Positions 1-8,983 of a stretch of 18,578 nucleotides of DNA are shown in pieces. Both the position numbers and the translations under genes were made by a program. Each line of letters opens with the position of its first letter. Within the stretch, counting starts at the first letter, position 1. The DNA is from a bacterium (GTDB taxonomy: Bacteria; SM23-31; JAUVVT01): the NCBI GenBank assembly GCA_030616165.1, contig JAUWXV010000050.1, forward strand, positions 1-18,578, read 5' to 3'. The notes beneath the pieces were generated by a model. It was given only the letters and a program-made list of their open reading frames with translations, did not search any database and was not told the DNA's origin.

Positions 1-1558
1 CTCCAAATGTCCAGCGGATATAGTAATCTCCCGCATAGGTCTCTTTATTATCGGGATCTGTGCCATCCCATGTTATAAGAAATATTCCAGAGGTGCCACC
101 ATAAAAACCGCCCTCAATAGGACCATTATAGAATTTTTTAATCTTCTTACCATCTGTTGAATACAAAGCAATTTCCAGTTCCCCGGATTTCCATGACTTA
201 TTTATGATTACGGATTCTTTTCCCCCGGTAATAATATGCGGAATTACTGCTGCCATATTAAGATCCCTGCATTCAGTGAATTTAACAGCCGGAACAGTAA
301 CTTTTTCTTTAGCATATTTTCTTTTAAAACTCGGAGGATGTTTCAGCACTGTATTCTCATAACGTATGCGCTCATATTGCCTGACATTGCCTCTTTTAAA
401 ACGCAGTTCATAGAGGTCGCGTATGGTCTGATCAAAATCGAGCAAGCCTGTCCAGAGCTGACCTGAATTTTTTGTGGCATTTGAATGACCCCACCTTTGT
501 TGAAAAGCCCCCAATCCTGTTGTATCTTTATCAGCTCCTCTGCCGTTTGAACTTATAAATTCCGGGTTCTCTTTGTCTTTATTCCACATTACTTCCAAAT
601 TGGTATTAATAATTCTTTGTATATCCTGCTCGTCAAAGACCATCCCATAATGATATGCCTCCACTATCTGGTGTACTTCACCAGCCTGGTAACCAGACCG
701 CCATGGGTGCACCCAGACACCGTGACGGGTATTTTTTCTTTCCAGGTCAATATCCCCGGGTATAAGTGGTTCCCAATAATTCCAAGTATAGTGATCATCA
801 AAGTATTGAAACCGGCTTTTTGCCGTAAAGAAAATCTTCTCTGCCCTGTCCCAATAAAATTTTTCTCCGGTAACCCGATATATACGCAAACAGACCTGAG
901 CCGCGTCCATCTGTTTATTAAACGGATGACTCACTCCCGACCTCGAGATTTCAGGTGCATATATCCACTCTTTAAAGTTATTAGGTTTTAAATACTTATT
1001 AGAACGAACATAAGCCCCATACGGTCCGTCCTCCTGCCAGGTATCTCTTTTGTCCCACTTTTCGACAAAGTGTTTTTTCGCTATTTCAACATAAGAATTT
1101 GCTTTATCACCATAATTTTTTTTGAGTGATTCATCATCAGACACAAGCACAGCAAAATCCAATATTCCTGTCAATAAGATTGCATCACCGACATGAACAT
1201 CAGTCCAATAATTATTATCATAACCATAGGGACCAATCCAGCCCTTGTATCCATCCGGAGCGGTATCCATTTTGTCCAATAAAAAATCGTAGTATTTTAT
1301 ACCCCAGTCCAACCAAGAGGTGTCTTTCGTTAATAAATAATTATCCACATACTGTCCCATACCAACCCTGGCATTCCAGCAAAAGCTTTCCCCCTTGGCA
1401 TATTTTTTAAGAGCAGGATTATCGACCATTTTCTGATATAAATCCGGAGGCGTGATATCCAGTTTAACCGGTTTTTTAGCACATGAAGAGATTACGAAAC
1501 ATAATATAAGTGCTAAACACCGAACAATAAAAGCACGTGATGATTTGGTTATTTTCAC
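1..1558 (-). CDS. Large exported lipoprotein, probable (alpha/alpha)-barrel carbohydrate enzyme with FlgD-like Ig segment (3' end outside window)
   Basis: The reading frame stays open from a GTG at 1556-1558 to the left edge (519 codons, no stop), so the C-terminus is missing. The start is set by GGAGG seven bases upstream. The N-terminus is a lipoprotein signal: basic residues, a hydrophobic stretch and lipobox VISSC with Cys at residue 26. Residues about 40-400 are rich in Trp, Tyr and His, with helical repeats (e.g. WLDWGIKYYDFLLDK, HPWRSGYQAGEVHQ), which resembles six-hairpin glycosidase or polysaccharide-lyase barrels; no exact family or catalytic residue is assigned. From about residue 443 the pattern changes to beta, with ITWDGTD followed by a YAGDYYIRW strand, as in FlgD-like Ig domains. 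It is divergent from the barrel genes. The export signal and open frame are seen directly; a carbohydrate role is inferred. Confidence 0.72.
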   Translation of the reverse strand, partial: MKITKSSRAFIVRCLALILCFVISSCAKKPVKLDITPPDLYQKMVDNPALKKYAKGESFCWNARVGMGQYVDNYLLTKDTSWLDWGIKYYDFLLDKMDTAPDGYKGWIGPYGYDNNYWTDVHVGDAILLTGILDFAVLVSDDESLKKNYGDKANSYVEIAKKHFVEKWDKRDTWQEDGPYGAYVRSNKYLKPNNFKEWIYAPEISRSGVSHPFNKQMDAAQVCLRIYRVTGEKFYWDRAEKIFFTAKSRFQYFDDHYTWNYWEPLIPGDIDLERKNTRHGVWVHPWRSGYQAGEVHQIVEAYHYGMVFDEQDIQRIINTNLEVMWNKDKENPEFISSNGRGADKDTTGLGAFQQRWGHSNATKNSGQLWTGLLDFDQTIRDLYELRFKRGNVRQYERIRYENTVLKHPPSFKRKYAKEKVTVPAVKFTECRDLNMAAVIPHIITGGKESVIINKSWKSGELEIALYSTDGKKIKKFYNGPIEGGFYGGTSGIFLITWDGTDPDNKETYAGDYYIRWTFG

Positions 1559-2359: not shown

Positions 2360-3256
2360 ATGAAAAAAGTTATCTTTTTTATAATGATTATAATATTACC
2401 TTCTTGTGTTTTAGGTAATTCCGTAAAGTCGTATTTACCAGCAATTGATTATTTTCGTTGTACTGCTGGAGAGCGTCTATTTTTTTATTATCAAGAATTA
2501 CATAAAGGCACTTTTTATATCGATAATGATTTTCGATTATACAATTTTAATAAATACTGGGATAAATCGGGCAAAAAATCTAACCATAGTAAATATACAA
2601 GATTGATAAATATAATCTCAATAAAATATTGTCCTATAAGTAAAACACAATTTAGTATCAGGGTGCCTTATGTATATTTAAATTCTGAGTGGAGAAAATT
2701 ATCAAGCTATGGTCTAAGTGATATATTTATCGGCATATCATATGAAGTTCTACAATTTTTAAATAATAAGATTTATTTATCAAGTGGAGTGAAAATACCT
2801 ATTGGTTATTATGAATACGATTTAGAAAAATTACCTTTAGGGACTGGCAGTTATGATATACCATTTGCTATAAATTCAGATTTTAATGTTCGCAATTTTT
2901 TTCTCTTTTTCGATATAGGTTACATTTTTAATGGAAAAAGTGATGTATCTTCTTATCCTTTCACCATTAATCTTAAAAGGAATAATGGTGATGAAATATT
3001 TAGTGACATTGCGATTATAAAGGAATATAATGGACTGGGAGTTAAGTTTGAGATGAATTATTACTACGTTTTTTATTCATCAATTTCAGGGTCAAGGTGG
3101 GATGATAGTCACTCTAAATTTAGTATTAATCCCGGATTGATATTTTCTCCAAAGTTTAAAAATATCAAATTAGAATTAGGATTTTCGTATGATTTGATTG
3201 GTAAAAATAATTTTTCAGGTTACTCGCCGGTTATTAGAATTCATTTTAATAAATAA
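2360..3256 (+). CDS. Outer-membrane beta-barrel protein, tandem paralog 1
   Basis: This 298-residue protein has a Sec signal peptide (about 1-20, ending VLG) and alternating hydrophobic/polar strands rich in Tyr, Phe and Asn. It ends in alternating RIHFNK, typical of a C-terminal barrel strand. The segments RVPYVY, SGLSDI-like, GVKIPIGYY and LGTGSYDI resemble transporter-type barrels of the Phenol_MetA_deg (PF13557) group; the family assignment is by pattern only. The ATG follows GGAGG by 11 bases. LPSC near residue 16 mimics a lipobox, but paralogs 2 and 3 have Gly there, so cleavage by signal peptidase I is more likely. It is first of three paralogs, 18 bases before the next. No substrate can be named. 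Confidence 0.82.
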   Translation: MKKVIFFIMIIILPSCVLGNSVKSYLPAIDYFRCTAGERLFFYYQELHKGTFYIDNDFRLYNFNKYWDKSGKKSNHSKYTRLINIISIKYCPISKTQFSIRVPYVYLNSEWRKLSSYGLSDIFIGISYEVLQFLNNKIYLSSGVKIPIGYYEYDLEKLPLGTGSYDIPFAINSDFNVRNFFLFFDIGYIFNGKSDVSSYPFTINLKRNNGDEIFSDIAIIKEYNGLGVKFEMNYYYVFYSSISGSRWDDSHSKFSINPGLIFSPKFKNIKLELGFSYDLIGKNNFSGYSPVIRIHFNK

Positions 3257-3274
3257 CGAAAGGTATTATAAAAG

Positions 3275-4246
3275 ATGAAAAAATTTATATTTTTTATAAT
3301 GTTGATATTATTGCCTTCAGGTATTTTAGGCCATTCCATAGGATGGCCATATTTGCAGGCATTTGATTATTTTCGTAGTACTGCCGGAGAGCGTATATTT
3401 TTTTATTATCAAAAATATCAGAAAGGCTCTTTTTATATCAATAATGATTTTCGATTATACAATTCTAATAAATATTGGGATGAATCGGGAGGAAAACATA
3501 ACTTTGATAAATATACGAGATTGATAAATATAATTTCAATAAAATACAGCCCTATAAGTAAGACACAATTCAGTGTCAGGGTGCCGTATGTATATTTAGA
3601 TTATTCATATAAATATTATAACTATCAGTTATCAAACTCCGGTCTAAGTGATATATTACTTGGCGTATCATATGAGATTGCACAATATTTAAATAATAAA
3701 ATTTATTTATCAAGCGGAGTGAAAATACCCGTGGGTTATTATAAATGCATCGACTACAATGAAAGAAAATTACCTCTGGGTACCGGCAGCTATGATATTC
3801 CAATTATTATAAGTTCAGATTTCAATGTTAAGAATCTCTTTCTCTTTTTAGATATAGGTTATATCTTTATTGGAAGTAGTGAAATATCATATGAAATATA
3901 TTATAAAATGTTACTTCCGCCCTATTTCAGTGTCAGTCTTGAAAAGTCTATAAGAAATAATGGTGATGAGATATTTGGTGACATTGCGATTATAAAGGAA
4001 CTCAAGAAATTTGCATTTAAGTTTGAAATAAATTACTACTACGTGTTTGATTCACCCAGTTGGGAAATCAGCTTTATGAGTAAGAGATGGGATAAAAGTC
4101 ACTATAAATTTAGCATTAATCCTGGATTAATTTTTTCTCCAAAGTTTAAAAATATCAAATTAGAATTAGGATTTTCGTATGATTTGATTGGAAAAAATAA
4201 TTATTCAGGATACTCACCAGTTGTTAGAATTCATTTTAATAAATAA
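3275..4246 (+). CDS. Outer-membrane beta-barrel protein, tandem paralog 2
   Basis: This 323-residue paralog of its neighbours has a Sec signal peptide ending ILG and the same barrel strands. It is the longest copy. Extra residues fall at four predicted loops: after RVPYVYLD, after GYYK (CIDYNE insertion), after the IGSSE segment (about 20 residues, including LLPPYFS), and before RWDKSHYKFS. The start has AGG followed by TATTATAAAAG, a leader motif shared with paralogs 1 and 3. The 3' 53 bases of scaffold sequence (4133-4185) are identical to both siblings, but the region matching 2523-2616 differs. It probably forms an operon with the flanking copies (gaps of 18 and 16 bases). Confidence 0.82.
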   Translation: MKKFIFFIMLILLPSGILGHSIGWPYLQAFDYFRSTAGERIFFYYQKYQKGSFYINNDFRLYNSNKYWDESGGKHNFDKYTRLINIISIKYSPISKTQFSVRVPYVYLDYSYKYYNYQLSNSGLSDILLGVSYEIAQYLNNKIYLSSGVKIPVGYYKCIDYNERKLPLGTGSYDIPIIISSDFNVKNLFLFLDIGYIFIGSSEISYEIYYKMLLPPYFSVSLEKSIRNNGDEIFGDIAIIKELKKFAFKFEINYYYVFDSPSWEISFMSKRWDKSHYKFSINPGLIFSPKFKNIKLELGFSYDLIGKNNYSGYSPVVRIHFNK

Positions 4247-4262
4247 TGAAAGGTATTATAAA

Positions 4263-5162
4263 ATGAAAAAATTTATCTTTATTATAATATTGATAGTATT
4301 GCCTTCAGGTGTTTTTGGCAATCCCATATCGTGGCCTTATTTACGAGCAAATGATTATTTCAGGGGAACTGCAGGAGAGCGTCTATTTTTTTATTATCAA
4401 GAATTACAGAAGGGCTCTTTTTATATTAATAATGATTTTCGATTATACAATTTTAATAAATACTGGGATAAATCGGGCAAAAAATCTAACCATAGTAAAT
4501 ATACAAGATTGATAAATATAATATCAATAAATTACAATTCTGGAAATAAAACACAATTCAGTATCAGGGTGCCGTATGTGAGATTAGACCATAGAGCATA
4601 TAGAACATTATCAAACTCCGGTCTAAGTGATATATTCCTTGGGGTATCGTATGAGATTGTAAAATTTTTGAATAATAAAATTTATTTATCAAGCGGAGTG
4701 AAGATACCTGCAGGTTATTATAAATACAATAAAGAAAAATTAACCATGGGGACCGGCAGTTTTGATATTCCATTTATTATAAATTCAGATTTTAATATTC
4801 AAAATCTTTTACTCTTTTTTGATTTTGGTTATATTTATATTGGAAATAGTAAAGAATTATATTCAAGTGATAGTGGTGGTTATGTTGTAAACAATGGTGA
4901 TGAGATGTTTGGTGATATTGCTATTATTAAGGAACTCGAACGAGTAGCATTTAAGTTTGAAATGAATTACTACTACGTTTTTAATTCATCACGTGTTTCA
5001 TGGTGGGATGATAGTCAATCTAAATTCAGCATTACACCCGGATTGATATTTTCTCCAAAGTTTAAAAATATCAAATTAGAATTAGGATTTTCGTATGATT
5101 TAATTGGTAAAAATAATTTTTCAGGTTACTCACCGGTCATTAGAATTCATTTTAATAATTGA
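4263..5162 (+). CDS. Outer-membrane beta-barrel protein, tandem paralog 3
   Basis: This 299-residue paralog starts at ATG 4263, directly after the shared AGGTATTATAAA leader. An in-frame ATG at 4188 lies inside the end of paralog 2 and is not credible as the start. Signal peptide, barrel strands and C-terminal RIHFNN match paralogs 1 and 2. Loop sequences are its own: SKELYSSDSGGYVV replaces the long loop of paralog 2, and TMGTGSFD replaces PLGTGSYD. A 94-bp block (4429-4522) is identical to paralog 1 (2523-2616) but not to paralog 2, which points to gene conversion. Function and substrate are unknown; an outer-membrane location is inferred from signal and strand pattern. Confidence 0.82.
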   Translation: MKKFIFIIILIVLPSGVFGNPISWPYLRANDYFRGTAGERLFFYYQELQKGSFYINNDFRLYNFNKYWDKSGKKSNHSKYTRLINIISINYNSGNKTQFSIRVPYVRLDHRAYRTLSNSGLSDIFLGVSYEIVKFLNNKIYLSSGVKIPAGYYKYNKEKLTMGTGSFDIPFIINSDFNIQNLLLFFDFGYIYIGNSKELYSSDSGGYVVNNGDEMFGDIAIIKELERVAFKFEMNYYYVFNSSRVSWWDDSQSKFSITPGLIFSPKFKNIKLELGFSYDLIGKNNFSGYSPVIRIHFNN

Positions 5163-5232: not shown

Positions 5233-5295
5233 TAAAGATATCAGAAAGGTTATTTTTACATTGGTAATGAAGTTCGATTGTTTAAATTAAAATAA
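5233..5295 (+). pseudogene. Remnant of a fourth beta-barrel paralog
   Basis: In frame, 5239-5292 encodes YQKGYFYIGNEVRLFK then LK and a stop. It aligns without gaps to YQKGSFYINNDFRLYN of paralog 2 (about 3415-3465). The DNA also aligns: ATATCAGAAAGG is identical, then TTTTTA, TAATGA and TTCGATT are shared. A CAA codon of the intact gene is TAA here (5233-5235), and the frame ends at 5293-5295. Upstream AAGGTATATGATATG may be a decayed copy of the shared AGGTATTATAAAATG leader, implying an internal deletion. What remains is too short to be a functional barrel. Confidence 0.7.
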
Positions 5296-5316
5296 GTAGT
5301 GAAAAGAGGGAATAAA

Positions 5317-5871
5317 GTGTTAAAGGTTACTTTTAAAACTGTTCTAATAATTATGATTATTTACTTATTGTTGTTATCGTGCGGTTCTTATACGACTCTA
5401 CCTCCTACGGCTCGCTATTCGATAACAAATCAAGATAGAATTTTTAATGCATCATTTGACGACATTTGGTCATCTGTGGTTTCATTAATAAGAAATTTCC
5501 AATGGGAAACTAAGTTAATAGACAAATCTTCAGGTGTAATTAAATTACGAGCATCCTGGATTTACTCTGATGTATCAGGAAATCCTGTTAATAGAGTTTA
5601 TAATTGGCCAAATTTAGAAGAAGTAGAATATTCCAATGTGCTAAGATATCTAAAAGAATATACTTATTCAAAGATTAAAATTCCAGGGATTACTAGATAC
5701 AGCAGAGAATACTTAACAATTAAAATAATAAAAGTTTCTTCCTCTAAAACGCAAGTTGATATAAAATACACAATTAATGTTTTTTCGAGTGCAACAGGTT
5801 TCTTAAAGGTTAATTCAAATGGATACCTTGAGTACCAAATCCTATCAAATATTAAGTCTCAGTTAAAATAG
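5317..5871 (+). CDS. Small uncharacterised lipoprotein
   Basis: I choose GTG 5317 (184 residues) because GAGGG lies six bases upstream; an in-frame GTG at 5299 lacks a ribosome site. The N-terminus is a compact lipoprotein signal: Lys, a long hydrophobic run, and lipobox LLLSC with Cys about residue 22 from this start. The mature part begins with a polar linker. It then shows an alpha/beta pattern: FNASFDDIWSSVVSLIRN, ETKLIDKSSGVIKLRA and YLTIKIIKV. This resembles the small BamC/NlpB-like or DUF-type lipoprotein domains in which a DDIW-type helix precedes strands; no family is assigned. It follows the barrel array on the same strand with its own predicted promoter. A role with the barrels is possible but unproven. 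Confidence 0.72.
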   Translation: MLKVTFKTVLIIMIIYLLLLSCGSYTTLPPTARYSITNQDRIFNASFDDIWSSVVSLIRNFQWETKLIDKSSGVIKLRASWIYSDVSGNPVNRVYNWPNLEEVEYSNVLRYLKEYTYSKIKIPGITRYSREYLTIKIIKVSSSKTQVDIKYTINVFSSATGFLKVNSNGYLEYQILSNIKSQLK

Positions 5872-6147
5872 TAGATTTATACATCTTTTATTTTTTAATT
5901 CTTGTATTTTTTCACCGCACAGGATAAAATCGGTTGAATTTGAATTAGTATCTCTGAAAATGCTTAAATAGACTAAAGGTATTGGGTTTCACGAAATTCG
6001 TTAGTTATTACAGTATAATAAGTTACAAGGATGCTAAAAATCAACTGCCTAATAAGATTTTCAATACTTGTTAATATTGAATTTACGGTAGCAAAAATTA
6101 AAAATTTTTCTTCAAAATAGCCCTTTTTATGGGTTATCATGCAGTTT

Positions 6148-6360
6148 TTTCAGAGCGCCACGAATTATGAAAATAAAATGCAGGGTGGGTAAGCCCGCCA
6201 CCAGAGGCGGACAAGCCCACCAGGGGGGGACAAGCCCGCCAGAGGCGGGTAAACCCACCAGAGGCGGGTAAACCCACCAGGGGCGGGTAAACCCGCCCCT
6301 ACGCGAACTAATGTGATTAAATTTTATGTCGTATGATAGGACAGTTATTTTAGGGATAAA
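6148..6360. repeat. Composite repeat, copy 1 (about 213 bp)
   Basis: It begins TTTCAGAGCGCCACGAATTA and ends GGGATAAA, matching copy 2 at both ends. Its centre (6195-6292) holds five tandem units of a 19-22 bp self-complementary sequence based on CCGCCAGAGGCGG plus ACAAGC or GTAAAC, then CCGCCCCTACGCG. The right arm is unique-looking AT-rich sequence with TTTTATGTCGTATGATAGGAC. There are no obvious terminal inverted repeats and no ORF, so it resembles a REP/BIME-type or non-autonomous element. Confidence 0.8.
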
Positions 6361-6364
6361 AAAT

Positions 6365-6410
6365 GGGATTGCCACGTCCCCCGCTAAAAGCGGGATACTC
6401 GCAATGACAG
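6365..6410. repeat. GGATTGCC...GCAATGACA hairpin repeat
   Basis: GGGATTGCC at the left and GCAATGACA at the right enclose CCCGCT-AAA-AGCGGG (6380-6394). The layout, GTCATTGC on the opposite strand, a hairpin, then GGCAATCC, is a common intergenic repeat form in bacterial genomes. It lies between the two composite repeats. Confidence 0.6.
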
Positions 6411-6466
6411 AAGAGGGTTTCATAATTCCAAAATAGAATTTTTTTCATAATTTAAAATAATTGTAA

Positions 6467-6487
6467 GGACAGAACACTGTTCTGTCC
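6467..6487. repeat. 21-bp near-perfect palindrome
   Basis: GGACAGAACA (6467-6476) and TGTTCTGTCC (6478-6487) are perfect 10-bp arms around one base. With the following CTACA it reads on the minus strand as TGTAGGGACAGAACA, a familiar style of dispersed intergenic palindrome. No T-run adjoins it, so it is not a clear terminator. Confidence 0.6.
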
Positions 6488-6560
6488 CTACATCTAATTT
6501 CTTTAATCTATGTAATTCATGAAATTAGTGGTTCTATTTTAAAACAAAACGTTTATTCTC

Positions 6561-6768
6561 TTTCAGAGCGCCACGAATTATGAAAATAAAAGGCAGGGGG
6601 GGTAAATCCGCCAGAGGCGGACAAGCCCGCCAGAGGCGGACAAGCCCACCAGAGGCGGACAAGCCCGCCAGAGGCGGGTAAACCCACCAGAGGCGGACAA
6701 GCCCGCCCCTACGCGAACTAATGATTAAATTTTATGTCGTATGATAGGACAGCTATTTTTGGGATAAA
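6561..6768. repeat. Composite repeat, copy 2 (about 208 bp)
   Basis: This is a direct-orientation copy of the element at 6148-6360, with the same left arm (TTTCAGAGCGCCACGAATTA) and right arm (ACGCGAACTAATG to GGGATAAA). The centre has five exact-length 19-bp units at 6608-6702, CCGCCAGAGGCGGACAAGC with small changes (CCACC in units 3 and 5, GGGTAAAC in unit 4). The flanking arms differ from copy 1 by only a few bases and a 2-base indel, so the copies are recent relatives. Confidence 0.8.
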
Positions 6769-6833
6769 TTAATGTATTAAAATTGCACTTATTTCAGAAA
6801 TAAGATTTAAAACAGATTGGATAGATTTGGTAT

Positions 6834-6869
6834 AAAAAAGGGGGCACAACGTCCAAATATTGTGCCCCC
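6834..6869 (-). terminator. Rho-independent terminator of the PD40 gene
   Basis: On the minus strand GGGGGCACAA (6869-6860) pairs perfectly with TTGTGCCCCC (6849-6840) across a 10-base loop and is followed by six Ts (6839-6834). It lies about 27 bases past the stop of the PD40 protein gene, so its assignment is clear. Confidence 0.9.
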
Positions 6870-6895: not shown

Positions 6896-8983
6896 TTATT
6901 CAGGCAGGAAGTTTTCCATCACCCAGACTTCTGCAAGCCTACTGGTACTGTTGTAGAAGGCAATATGTTGCCCATCGGGATGAACACTTAGATGGATTAT
7001 ATCTAATCCAAGTTTCTCGGGTTTTCCGCCCTCTATAGTAATTCGCAATAAGCTATATTCGGGTTGACTTATTACAAAGAGAATATACTTTCCATTAGGA
7101 GTCCATCTTAGTGTAAAAAAACTATCGTCTTCTTGCTCAGACCTATACAGTTCTCGAGGTTCTCCTCCAGCAGCCGGCATGATTCTCAGTACACCTTTCT
7201 TCCCCCTTTTTATAAAAGCCAGCCATTTGCCGTCCGGTGAACAGGATAAATTGAAACGATCATCATCGGATGTACGATAGAGTTCCTTTTCTGTGCCGCT
7301 TTCGAGGTTTCGAACAAGGATTTGACGAAGATTATTAGTATCGTTGCTACGCACATAGAAAATAGCTTTTCCATCATGTGACCATTCTCCTGAGTATATT
7401 ATTTCATATTCTTCGCCACCACTCAGCACGACAGGCGTGACGTTGCCTGTTTGAGCATCTATCTGATAGAGTCCCCAACGATTATTATTGTCCAGACCAC
7501 CGACAAGAATAGAGCTGCAATCCGGAGACCAACGGGGTAAACCAATTTCTTTGAGTTTCGGGAAGAATTCTCGCTCCTCACCGGTTTTAAGGGAATGAAT
7601 ACAGAGAACGTTAGGATGATTAGAAATGAAGGGCATAGTGCCCCGTCTAGAAATATAGGCCAGGTATTTCCCGTCAGGCGAATAGTCTGGTTGAGTATTA
7701 GAACCCTCGAAACGTTTAATTGCCTTCTTCGGTGGACCCAGGATTTCGCCTGTCTCAGGATCGAGTTTGGCGAAATAAACATCGCGTATTCTGCCTCCTT
7801 GGCAGCCGTAGTAAAAAGAACCATCCCTGGTGAATCCCATTGCTTTAAATCGCCCAATATCCGGCTTAATCAGTTCAGGTGCTCCCTGAGGTTTTCCATC
7901 AGCGACCGCAATGAGCCATGCACCGAGGGTTCCGGTTCGGTCACTGGCAAAAAGGATATTTTTTCCATCCGGCGCCCAGCCGAGTACATAATCATTGGCA
8001 GGGTGTTTAACCAGAGAAATTTCACGACTTCCATTGGTCGACATCAGGGAGATGTCACGTTCCGGAGAGTCTTCTTTTTGTGGAAAGTCATACACAATGT
8101 AGTGCCCGTCCGGTGAAAAGCTCATATTCTCCGGTTCGCCTTGTTCCAGTATTTTTAGAACACGCACGGAACCATCGGCAGCGGAAAACAGCACCATCTG
8201 GCAGATCCAGTCTGTTCCGCCTTTTCTGTAGAAGCATGCCAGAATTTGCCTGCCATCGGGGGACCAATCGTAAGTTTTGGCATATTCTCCATCCTCATTA
8301 CTATATAGAATTCGGGGCTTCGAGCCGTCAAGCCCGATAATGTACAAGTCGATAAATTCGTTATCATTGTACCACTCATAAACAATCTGCTTGCCGTCGG
8401 GTGACCATCTGGAAAATATTGCATATTCAAAGGATTCATCCCATGAACCCTTATTCGTGAGACGGCGCTTCTTCCCGGTGGCAATTTCACGGATGGCAAG
8501 GTCGCCGGTATCCCAGTCAACATAAGAGAGATACCTGCCGTCAGGTGAAGGTGCTCCATATATACCCACTATGTCAGGATCTGCCCATACCTGCCGGATA
8601 TTAAATTCCTTATCTTCTTTTCTTATGACTGCTTTGGCTCTTAAGAGAAGGGATAGTTTTTCGTTAGCCACTTTGACTGCTTCGGCTTGCTCAGGATAGC
8701 TGTCAATCACTTTCTGGTAAGCTTTTTGCGCTTCTTTCAGACCTAATTTTTCATAGCAGAGTCCGATATAAAGTTGAGATTTAGCCGCATATTCTCTTTC
8801 ATCGGAATATTTTTCTATGATTTCGTTAAAGAGTTTAATAGCTTCCTTTAGGTCGCCTTTTGTTTCCATAGTAAATTTTGCCTTCTCGAAGAGAACCTTG
8901 AACTCGGGCGAAGTCTGAAATCCGAATGCCGTTAATAAGACGGCAATAAAGGCAATTAGAATAAAAGTTTTTTTGTGGTTCAT
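6896..8983 (-). CDS. Exported TPR / PD40 (WD40-like, TolB-type) beta-propeller protein
   Basis: This 695-residue protein starts at ATG 8983 with AGGAGG seven bases upstream. Residues 1-22 are a Sec signal peptide (AVLLTAFGF). Residues about 30-110 hold TPR-type helices (EAIKLFNEIIEKYSD, AQKAYQKVIDSYPEQA). From about 140 to the end there are twelve PD40 motifs of the form WSPDGKxIxY, enough for two propellers of six blades; a few are degenerate (FTRDGSFYYG, WSPDCSS). No catalytic peptidase domain follows, so it is probably a periplasmic binding or scaffold protein rather than a peptidase. It lies downstream of a response regulator and kinase on the same strand. A terminator follows, and an 11-bp-arm palindrome abuts its ribosome site. 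Ligand unknown. Confidence 0.88.
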   Translation of the reverse strand: MNHKKTFILIAFIAVLLTAFGFQTSPEFKVLFEKAKFTMETKGDLKEAIKLFNEIIEKYSDEREYAAKSQLYIGLCYEKLGLKEAQKAYQKVIDSYPEQAEAVKVANEKLSLLLRAKAVIRKEDKEFNIRQVWADPDIVGIYGAPSPDGRYLSYVDWDTGDLAIREIATGKKRRLTNKGSWDESFEYAIFSRWSPDGKQIVYEWYNDNEFIDLYIIGLDGSKPRILYSNEDGEYAKTYDWSPDGRQILACFYRKGGTDWICQMVLFSAADGSVRVLKILEQGEPENMSFSPDGHYIVYDFPQKEDSPERDISLMSTNGSREISLVKHPANDYVLGWAPDGKNILFASDRTGTLGAWLIAVADGKPQGAPELIKPDIGRFKAMGFTRDGSFYYGCQGGRIRDVYFAKLDPETGEILGPPKKAIKRFEGSNTQPDYSPDGKYLAYISRRGTMPFISNHPNVLCIHSLKTGEEREFFPKLKEIGLPRWSPDCSSILVGGLDNNNRWGLYQIDAQTGNVTPVVLSGGEEYEIIYSGEWSHDGKAIFYVRSNDTNNLRQILVRNLESGTEKELYRTSDDDRFNLSCSPDGKWLAFIKRGKKGVLRIMPAAGGEPRELYRSEQEDDSFFTLRWTPNGKYILFVISQPEYSLLRITIEGGKPEKLGLDIIHLSVHPDGQHIAFYNSTSRLAEVWVMENFLPE

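Follow-up and report, generated by a model that had tools for sequence, protein, structure and literature searches.

Background

FapF, an amyloid secretion channel, and Pput2725, a member of COG4313, are 12-stranded β-barrels which are blocked by an N-terminal segment (PMC5557850; PMC5406399). The PTG motif of FapF lies on the extracellular side, at the base of loop β5–β6, and the COG4313 relative is a channel for which uptake of hydrophobic substrates via a lateral gate near PTG has been proposed (PMC5557850). In the outer-membrane proteins (OMPs) of Escherichia coli, most variable regions belong to extracellular loops and frequently coincide with sites of phage binding; FadL is a receptor for T2 (PMC12175518).

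We analysed a window of 18,578 nucleotides, the entire contig C177 (JAUWXV010000050.1) of a bacterial genome (GTDB lineage SM23-31; 3.74 Mb in 343 contigs, 90% complete). With a probability of roughly 0.6 we interpret the locus described here as a tandem-duplicated barrel related to COG4313 and FapF in which the wall is conserved and loops 2–5 have diverged, the products presumably being small-molecule channels with different outer faces.

Organization of the array

Three genes are arranged head to tail on the forward strand, with intergenic spacers of 18 and 16 bp. Gene 1 (2360–3256, 298 aa) specifies a predicted 12-stranded outer-membrane barrel with a signal peptide. Gene 2 (3275–4246, 323 aa), which has the longest loops of the three, and gene 3 (4263–5162, 299 aa) are paralogues displaying 73% and 74% identity, respectively, to gene 1. 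The start of gene 3 is the ATG at 4263; the listed 324-aa ORF from the TTG at 4188 runs into gene 2. A ribosome-binding-like leader, GGTATTATAAAA, precedes the start codon of each gene which, together with the short spacers, fits a single operon built by tandem duplication. The initial annotation had described three adjacent genes of these lengths for one predicted outer-membrane barrel; coordinates and lengths proved correct, and the barrel prediction is in keeping with the remote homology to FapF and the COG4313/PF13557 barrels presented below. An assembly duplication was rejected because the copies differ at about a quarter of their residues. No extra copy was found elsewhere in the genome, giving a total of three.

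Just 3' of gene 3 a 46-nt match to gene 2 (5234–5279; 80% identity) was found in searches confined to the flanks [blastn E 2.3e-7, tblastn E 0.003], and appears to be the remnant of a fourth copy. This relic (5234–5293, forward strand) is approximately 60 bp in length, reads YQKGYFYIGNEVRLFKLK followed by a stop, and is devoid of any loop.

Directly after the relic, on the same strand, lies a gene for a small predicted lipoprotein (5299–5871) with a lipobox-like LLSC and no Pfam match, which may or may not be a member of the array; no homologue was found in five other genomes of the phylum. Besides this lipoprotein, the neighbours of the array comprise a two-component system and a TPR/PD40 protein. 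The latter, a 695-aa protein encoded on the minus strand (6896–8983), possesses TPR_6 and PD40 beta-propeller repeats; the same five genomes yielded no full relative of it at E 1e-20. At the other end a 519-aa open-ended predicted lipoprotein (2–1558, minus strand; no Pfam match at 1e-5) leaves the contig. The region also contains a palindromic unit, CCRCCAGRGGCGGRYAARCC, which forms two head-to-tail arrays of five with 19-bp spacing (6198–6294 and 6608–6704) and occurs singly at 2261–2281, some 80 bp 5' of gene 1 (11 matches in all, versus 0 expected). Three other contigs of this genome (C266, C328 and C339) carry a 20-mer of this repeat as well; the unit is a dispersed GC-rich repeat within an AT-rich region.

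Relationship to known barrels

Pfam and NCBIfam scans gave no usable family match for the three proteins; the PF13557 model did not match them even at E 10, and a PF13557-family search of their own genome returned nothing at 1e-6. Nor did a profile of the three proteins alone match any PDB sequence. Among 386 broadly sampled genomes this profile found nine distant OMPs [E 5e-7 to 4e-4], with open frames of 232–353 residues and a common motif, GLGD...VKxPTG...LPLGxGSxD; PF13557 is present in three of the nine. Compared profile to profile with ten aligned relatives, the array proteins gave a probability of 98.4 over 205 columns. The joint profile of array proteins and relatives matched FapF [1.3e-9] and Pput2725 [0.004, 4rl8] in the PDB, and a profile of the relatives only, with the array proteins left out, did so too [FapF 1.7e-6, Pput2725 2.7e-4]; since the FapF match persists, it is owed largely to the relatives, and its link to the array proteins is transitive.

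The array proteins display a signal peptide, amphipathic strands up to the C-terminus and an even strand number (from sequence, and from predicted strands in genes 1 and 3). Alternation gives 12 strands, and some 30 residues lie between the signal peptide and the first of these. Together with the profile matches this supports their being outer-membrane β-barrels with a remote relationship to FapF and the COG4313 barrels. They share with COG4313/PF13557 "Phenol_MetA_deg" proteins such as Pput2725 the (here predicted) 12-strand architecture, a preceding N-terminal segment, a length of about 300 aa and the signature GLxD...VKxPxG...LPLGTGSxD. They differ in lying below detection by the Pfam model, in possessing P[IVA]G for PTG, in being triplicated and in having divergent loops. 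Of the solved structures FapF [PDB 5o65, 5o67 and 5o68] is matched best by the joint profile, and it is a plugged barrel with the 12 strands that are predicted for the array proteins too, but these have no room for its long N-terminal periplasmic coiled coil. A FapF function was rejected on this account (approximately 30 residues before strand 1) and because the window showed no other recognisable fap gene.

Six-frame searches of five other genomes of the phylum (63–83% complete) revealed no close homologue, and the same was true of scans of genome contigs, viral contigs, plasmids and phages with the array proteins. A genome scan with the closest distant relative as query recovered only that relative itself. 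Weak PF13557-like barrels occur in one of the five phylum genomes, and the neighbouring genes, used as probes for a syntenic locus in these genomes, gave no match. Judged on this sample of five incomplete genomes, the array looks lineage-specific. A genome of the same class (L037) carries a single, non-tandem PF13557-like barrel of 310 aa (5915–6847), which adjoins a thioredoxin-domain-like protein and two DUF3179-like proteins (named by eye).

Topology

In the joint-profile alignment the family PTG falls on the PTG of FapF; there the array proteins carry P[IVA]GYY ("KIPxGYY"), the T not being kept, and this motif closes their fifth strand. On that alignment loop 3 would be extracellular and, by strand alternation, so would loops 2, 4 and 5. 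In known barrels the C-terminus is periplasmic, and counting strands back from it puts loops 2–5 on the extracellular side also. A crude strand predictor, which takes no account of variability, gave the same twelve strands (the first excepted) in genes 1 and 3, not in gene 2, polarity being beyond its reach. The AlphaFold models, with pLDDT values of 33 for the three proteins and 29 for the mature forms and one distant relative, were unusable for orientation.

The initial annotation had regarded four variable stretches as surface loops. Their prediction as extracellular loops is well supported, the FapF PTG anchor agreeing with alternation from the C-terminus, and by these two means none of them falls in a periplasmic turn or a strand.

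Where the copies differ

The alignment was split into signal peptide, N-terminal segment, 12 strands, six extracellular loops and five periplasmic turns. Within the barrel, length differences are confined to loops 2–5, there being not one gap column in strands or turns. Loop 2 (β3–β4), after RVPYVxL, has 10, 14 and 11 residues in genes 1, 2 and 3, respectively; in gene 1 it is NSEWRKLSSY (2681–2710, with counterparts at 3599–3640 and 4587–4619; coordinates computed from the alignment). Loop 3 (β5–β6), following the GYY of the PxG motif, has 9, 12 and 9 residues (2813–2839; 3743–3778 and 4722–4748), and loop 4 (β7–β8), which precedes NNGDE and is the most variable, has 15, 27 and 15 (2936–2980; 3875–3955 and 4845–4889). 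Loop 5 (β9–β10), before xKFS, has 13, 18 and 12 (3074–3112; 4049–4102 and 4983–5018). All of these lie on the forward strand.

In the strands 126 of the 155 columns are invariant and none is gapped, so that their description in the initial annotation as near-constant is apt; in loops 2–5 only 10 of 72 columns are invariant and 29 are gapped. Conservation is relatively high in loops 1 and 6: loop 6 is almost constant, and loop 1 is identical between genes 1 and 3. As these two adjoin at barrel closure, the variable loops 2–5 would line up along the rim as a single unbroken arc. The same annotation had the differences concentrated in four places. This holds for all of the length change in the barrel, but the N-terminal segment (columns 20–52) has a one-residue indel and only 19 of 33 columns invariant, and the periplasmic turns, though constant in length, carry substitutions (11 of 24 columns invariant). 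The number of variable columns under loop labels (68) was matched by 0 of 271 other circular shifts of the alignment, and the observed count of gap columns was reached by 3 of 272, the true placement included; since the strand and loop labels were set with the alignment in view, these figures gauge concentration and are not an independent test.

Possible recombination between copies

A tract of 94 bp (2523–2616 in gene 1, 4429–4522 in gene 3; forward strand), spanning β1, loop 1 and the start of β2, is identical in genes 1 and 3. It includes 13 consecutive polymorphic sites at which gene 2 differs, a run seen in 0 of 2000 permutations when all sites were used; at synonymous sites alone the identity runs were not significant [P 0.10 for this tract, and 0.14]. 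All three genes also share an identical 53-bp stretch close to their 3' end. Gene conversion between genes 1 and 3 is plausible, and the 94-bp tract is a candidate for it.

Antigenic variation through segmental gene conversion from silent cassettes, of the TprK or Msp2 type, was rejected because each of the three copies is full-length with its own start and leader. No silent donor cassettes or expression site were seen: the genome holds only three copies and the fourth is the 60-bp, loop-less relic.

Constraint and selection

For the strands dN is 0.06–0.07, dS 0.38–0.46 and dN/dS 0.15–0.16 in all three gene pairs. For loops 2–5 the corresponding dN is 0.46–0.53 and dS 0.49–0.99, with ratios of 0.47, 0.95 and 1.08. 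The barrel strands are under strong purifying constraint, and loops 2–5 evolve almost freely. Conservation of the strands in every pair implies that each of the three proteins is produced and in use.

Ratios near 1 from three sequences do not separate relaxed constraint from diversifying selection, and they fit the former as well as the latter acting in the past. One might suppose, then, that the loops of a duplicated channel have simply drifted with no selection for difference, the extra copies being kept for dosage. We regard this as a genuine possibility, somewhat short of probable. The loop ratios approach 1 without clearly exceeding it, and loops in general are the most change-tolerant parts of a barrel. 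Against it, a control pair of related proteins from one genus (L008 and L013, 80% identical) has a loop dN of 0.110 versus 0.118 for the rest of the barrel, a single pair with saturated dS; its loops are no faster than its barrel, and on this one pair fast loops are not automatic in the broad family, nor is free drift a property of all members. In addition loops 1 and 6 and most strands of the array proteins remain conserved, and three copies with differing faces have all been kept open by purifying selection.

Possible function of the divergent loops

If selection has acted, phages or predators might be the agents: the loops would serve as receptor sites, and their alteration would permit escape from binders while the channel continues to work. 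The concentration of indels and substitutions in loops 2–5 is what such pressure might produce, and the precedent of the E. coli OMPs, whose variable loops coincide with phage-binding sites (PMC12175518), favours by analogy a role in binding. However, all copies look intact and co-transcribed, and nothing points to a switching of their expression; we consider this cause, too, a possibility short of probable.

The COG4313 relative suggests, again by analogy, substrate uptake instead. Each copy might have its own ligand, the loops forming an outer vestibule or lateral gate, and loop 3 does follow the position equivalent to the PTG and lateral gate of COG4313. No array-specific catabolic or transport gene was seen among the neighbours, however, and specialisation of this kind is put forward only tentatively. 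Improbable in our estimation is a dedicated loop-diversification locus, in which barrel segments would be exchanged by gene conversion and loops 2–5 kept different by selection to give three outer faces per cell, in a family not known for this.

We thus return to the tandem-duplicated channel as the preferred reading. A single-copy barrel, remotely related to the 12-stranded COG4313/FapF channels, would have been duplicated in tandem to at least four copies, one of which is now the relic. Purifying selection would have kept the barrel wall, with occasional recombination between neighbours probably helping its uniformity, as the four adjacent extracellular loops 2–5 of each copy diverged, both in sequence and in length. 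Going by family membership, the most likely role of all three proteins is that of channels for small molecules, possibly hydrophobic ones. Their different outer faces may recognise different ligands, or may change the surface to which phages and other binders can attach.

Should selection rather than drift be responsible, pressure from phages, predators or ligands on this group of bacteria would be indicated, and a COG4313/FapF-type barrel, usually considered a transporter, could be a diversified surface structure as well.

Comparison with known systems

The array resembles the E. coli OMPs under mosaic evolution (FadL, OmpC and LamB; PMC12175518) in its conserved barrel, hypervariable extracellular loops and local recombination. 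Those, however, are alleles of one locus across strains, whereas here we are dealing with tandem paralogues within one genome.

The P28/OMP-1 proteins of Ehrlichia constitute a tandem OMP multigene family with hypervariable regions, likewise composed of head-to-tail barrel paralogues with constant strands and variable loops. Unlike these, the array proteins have no Surface_Ag_2 match in Pfam, are specified by only three genes and have no known host association. The array is a real, apparently lineage-specific example of a familiar kind of surface-protein diversification. What it adds, in a sparsely sampled phylum, is a tandem-triplicated predicted outer-membrane channel in which change is confined to what would be one arc of the rim.
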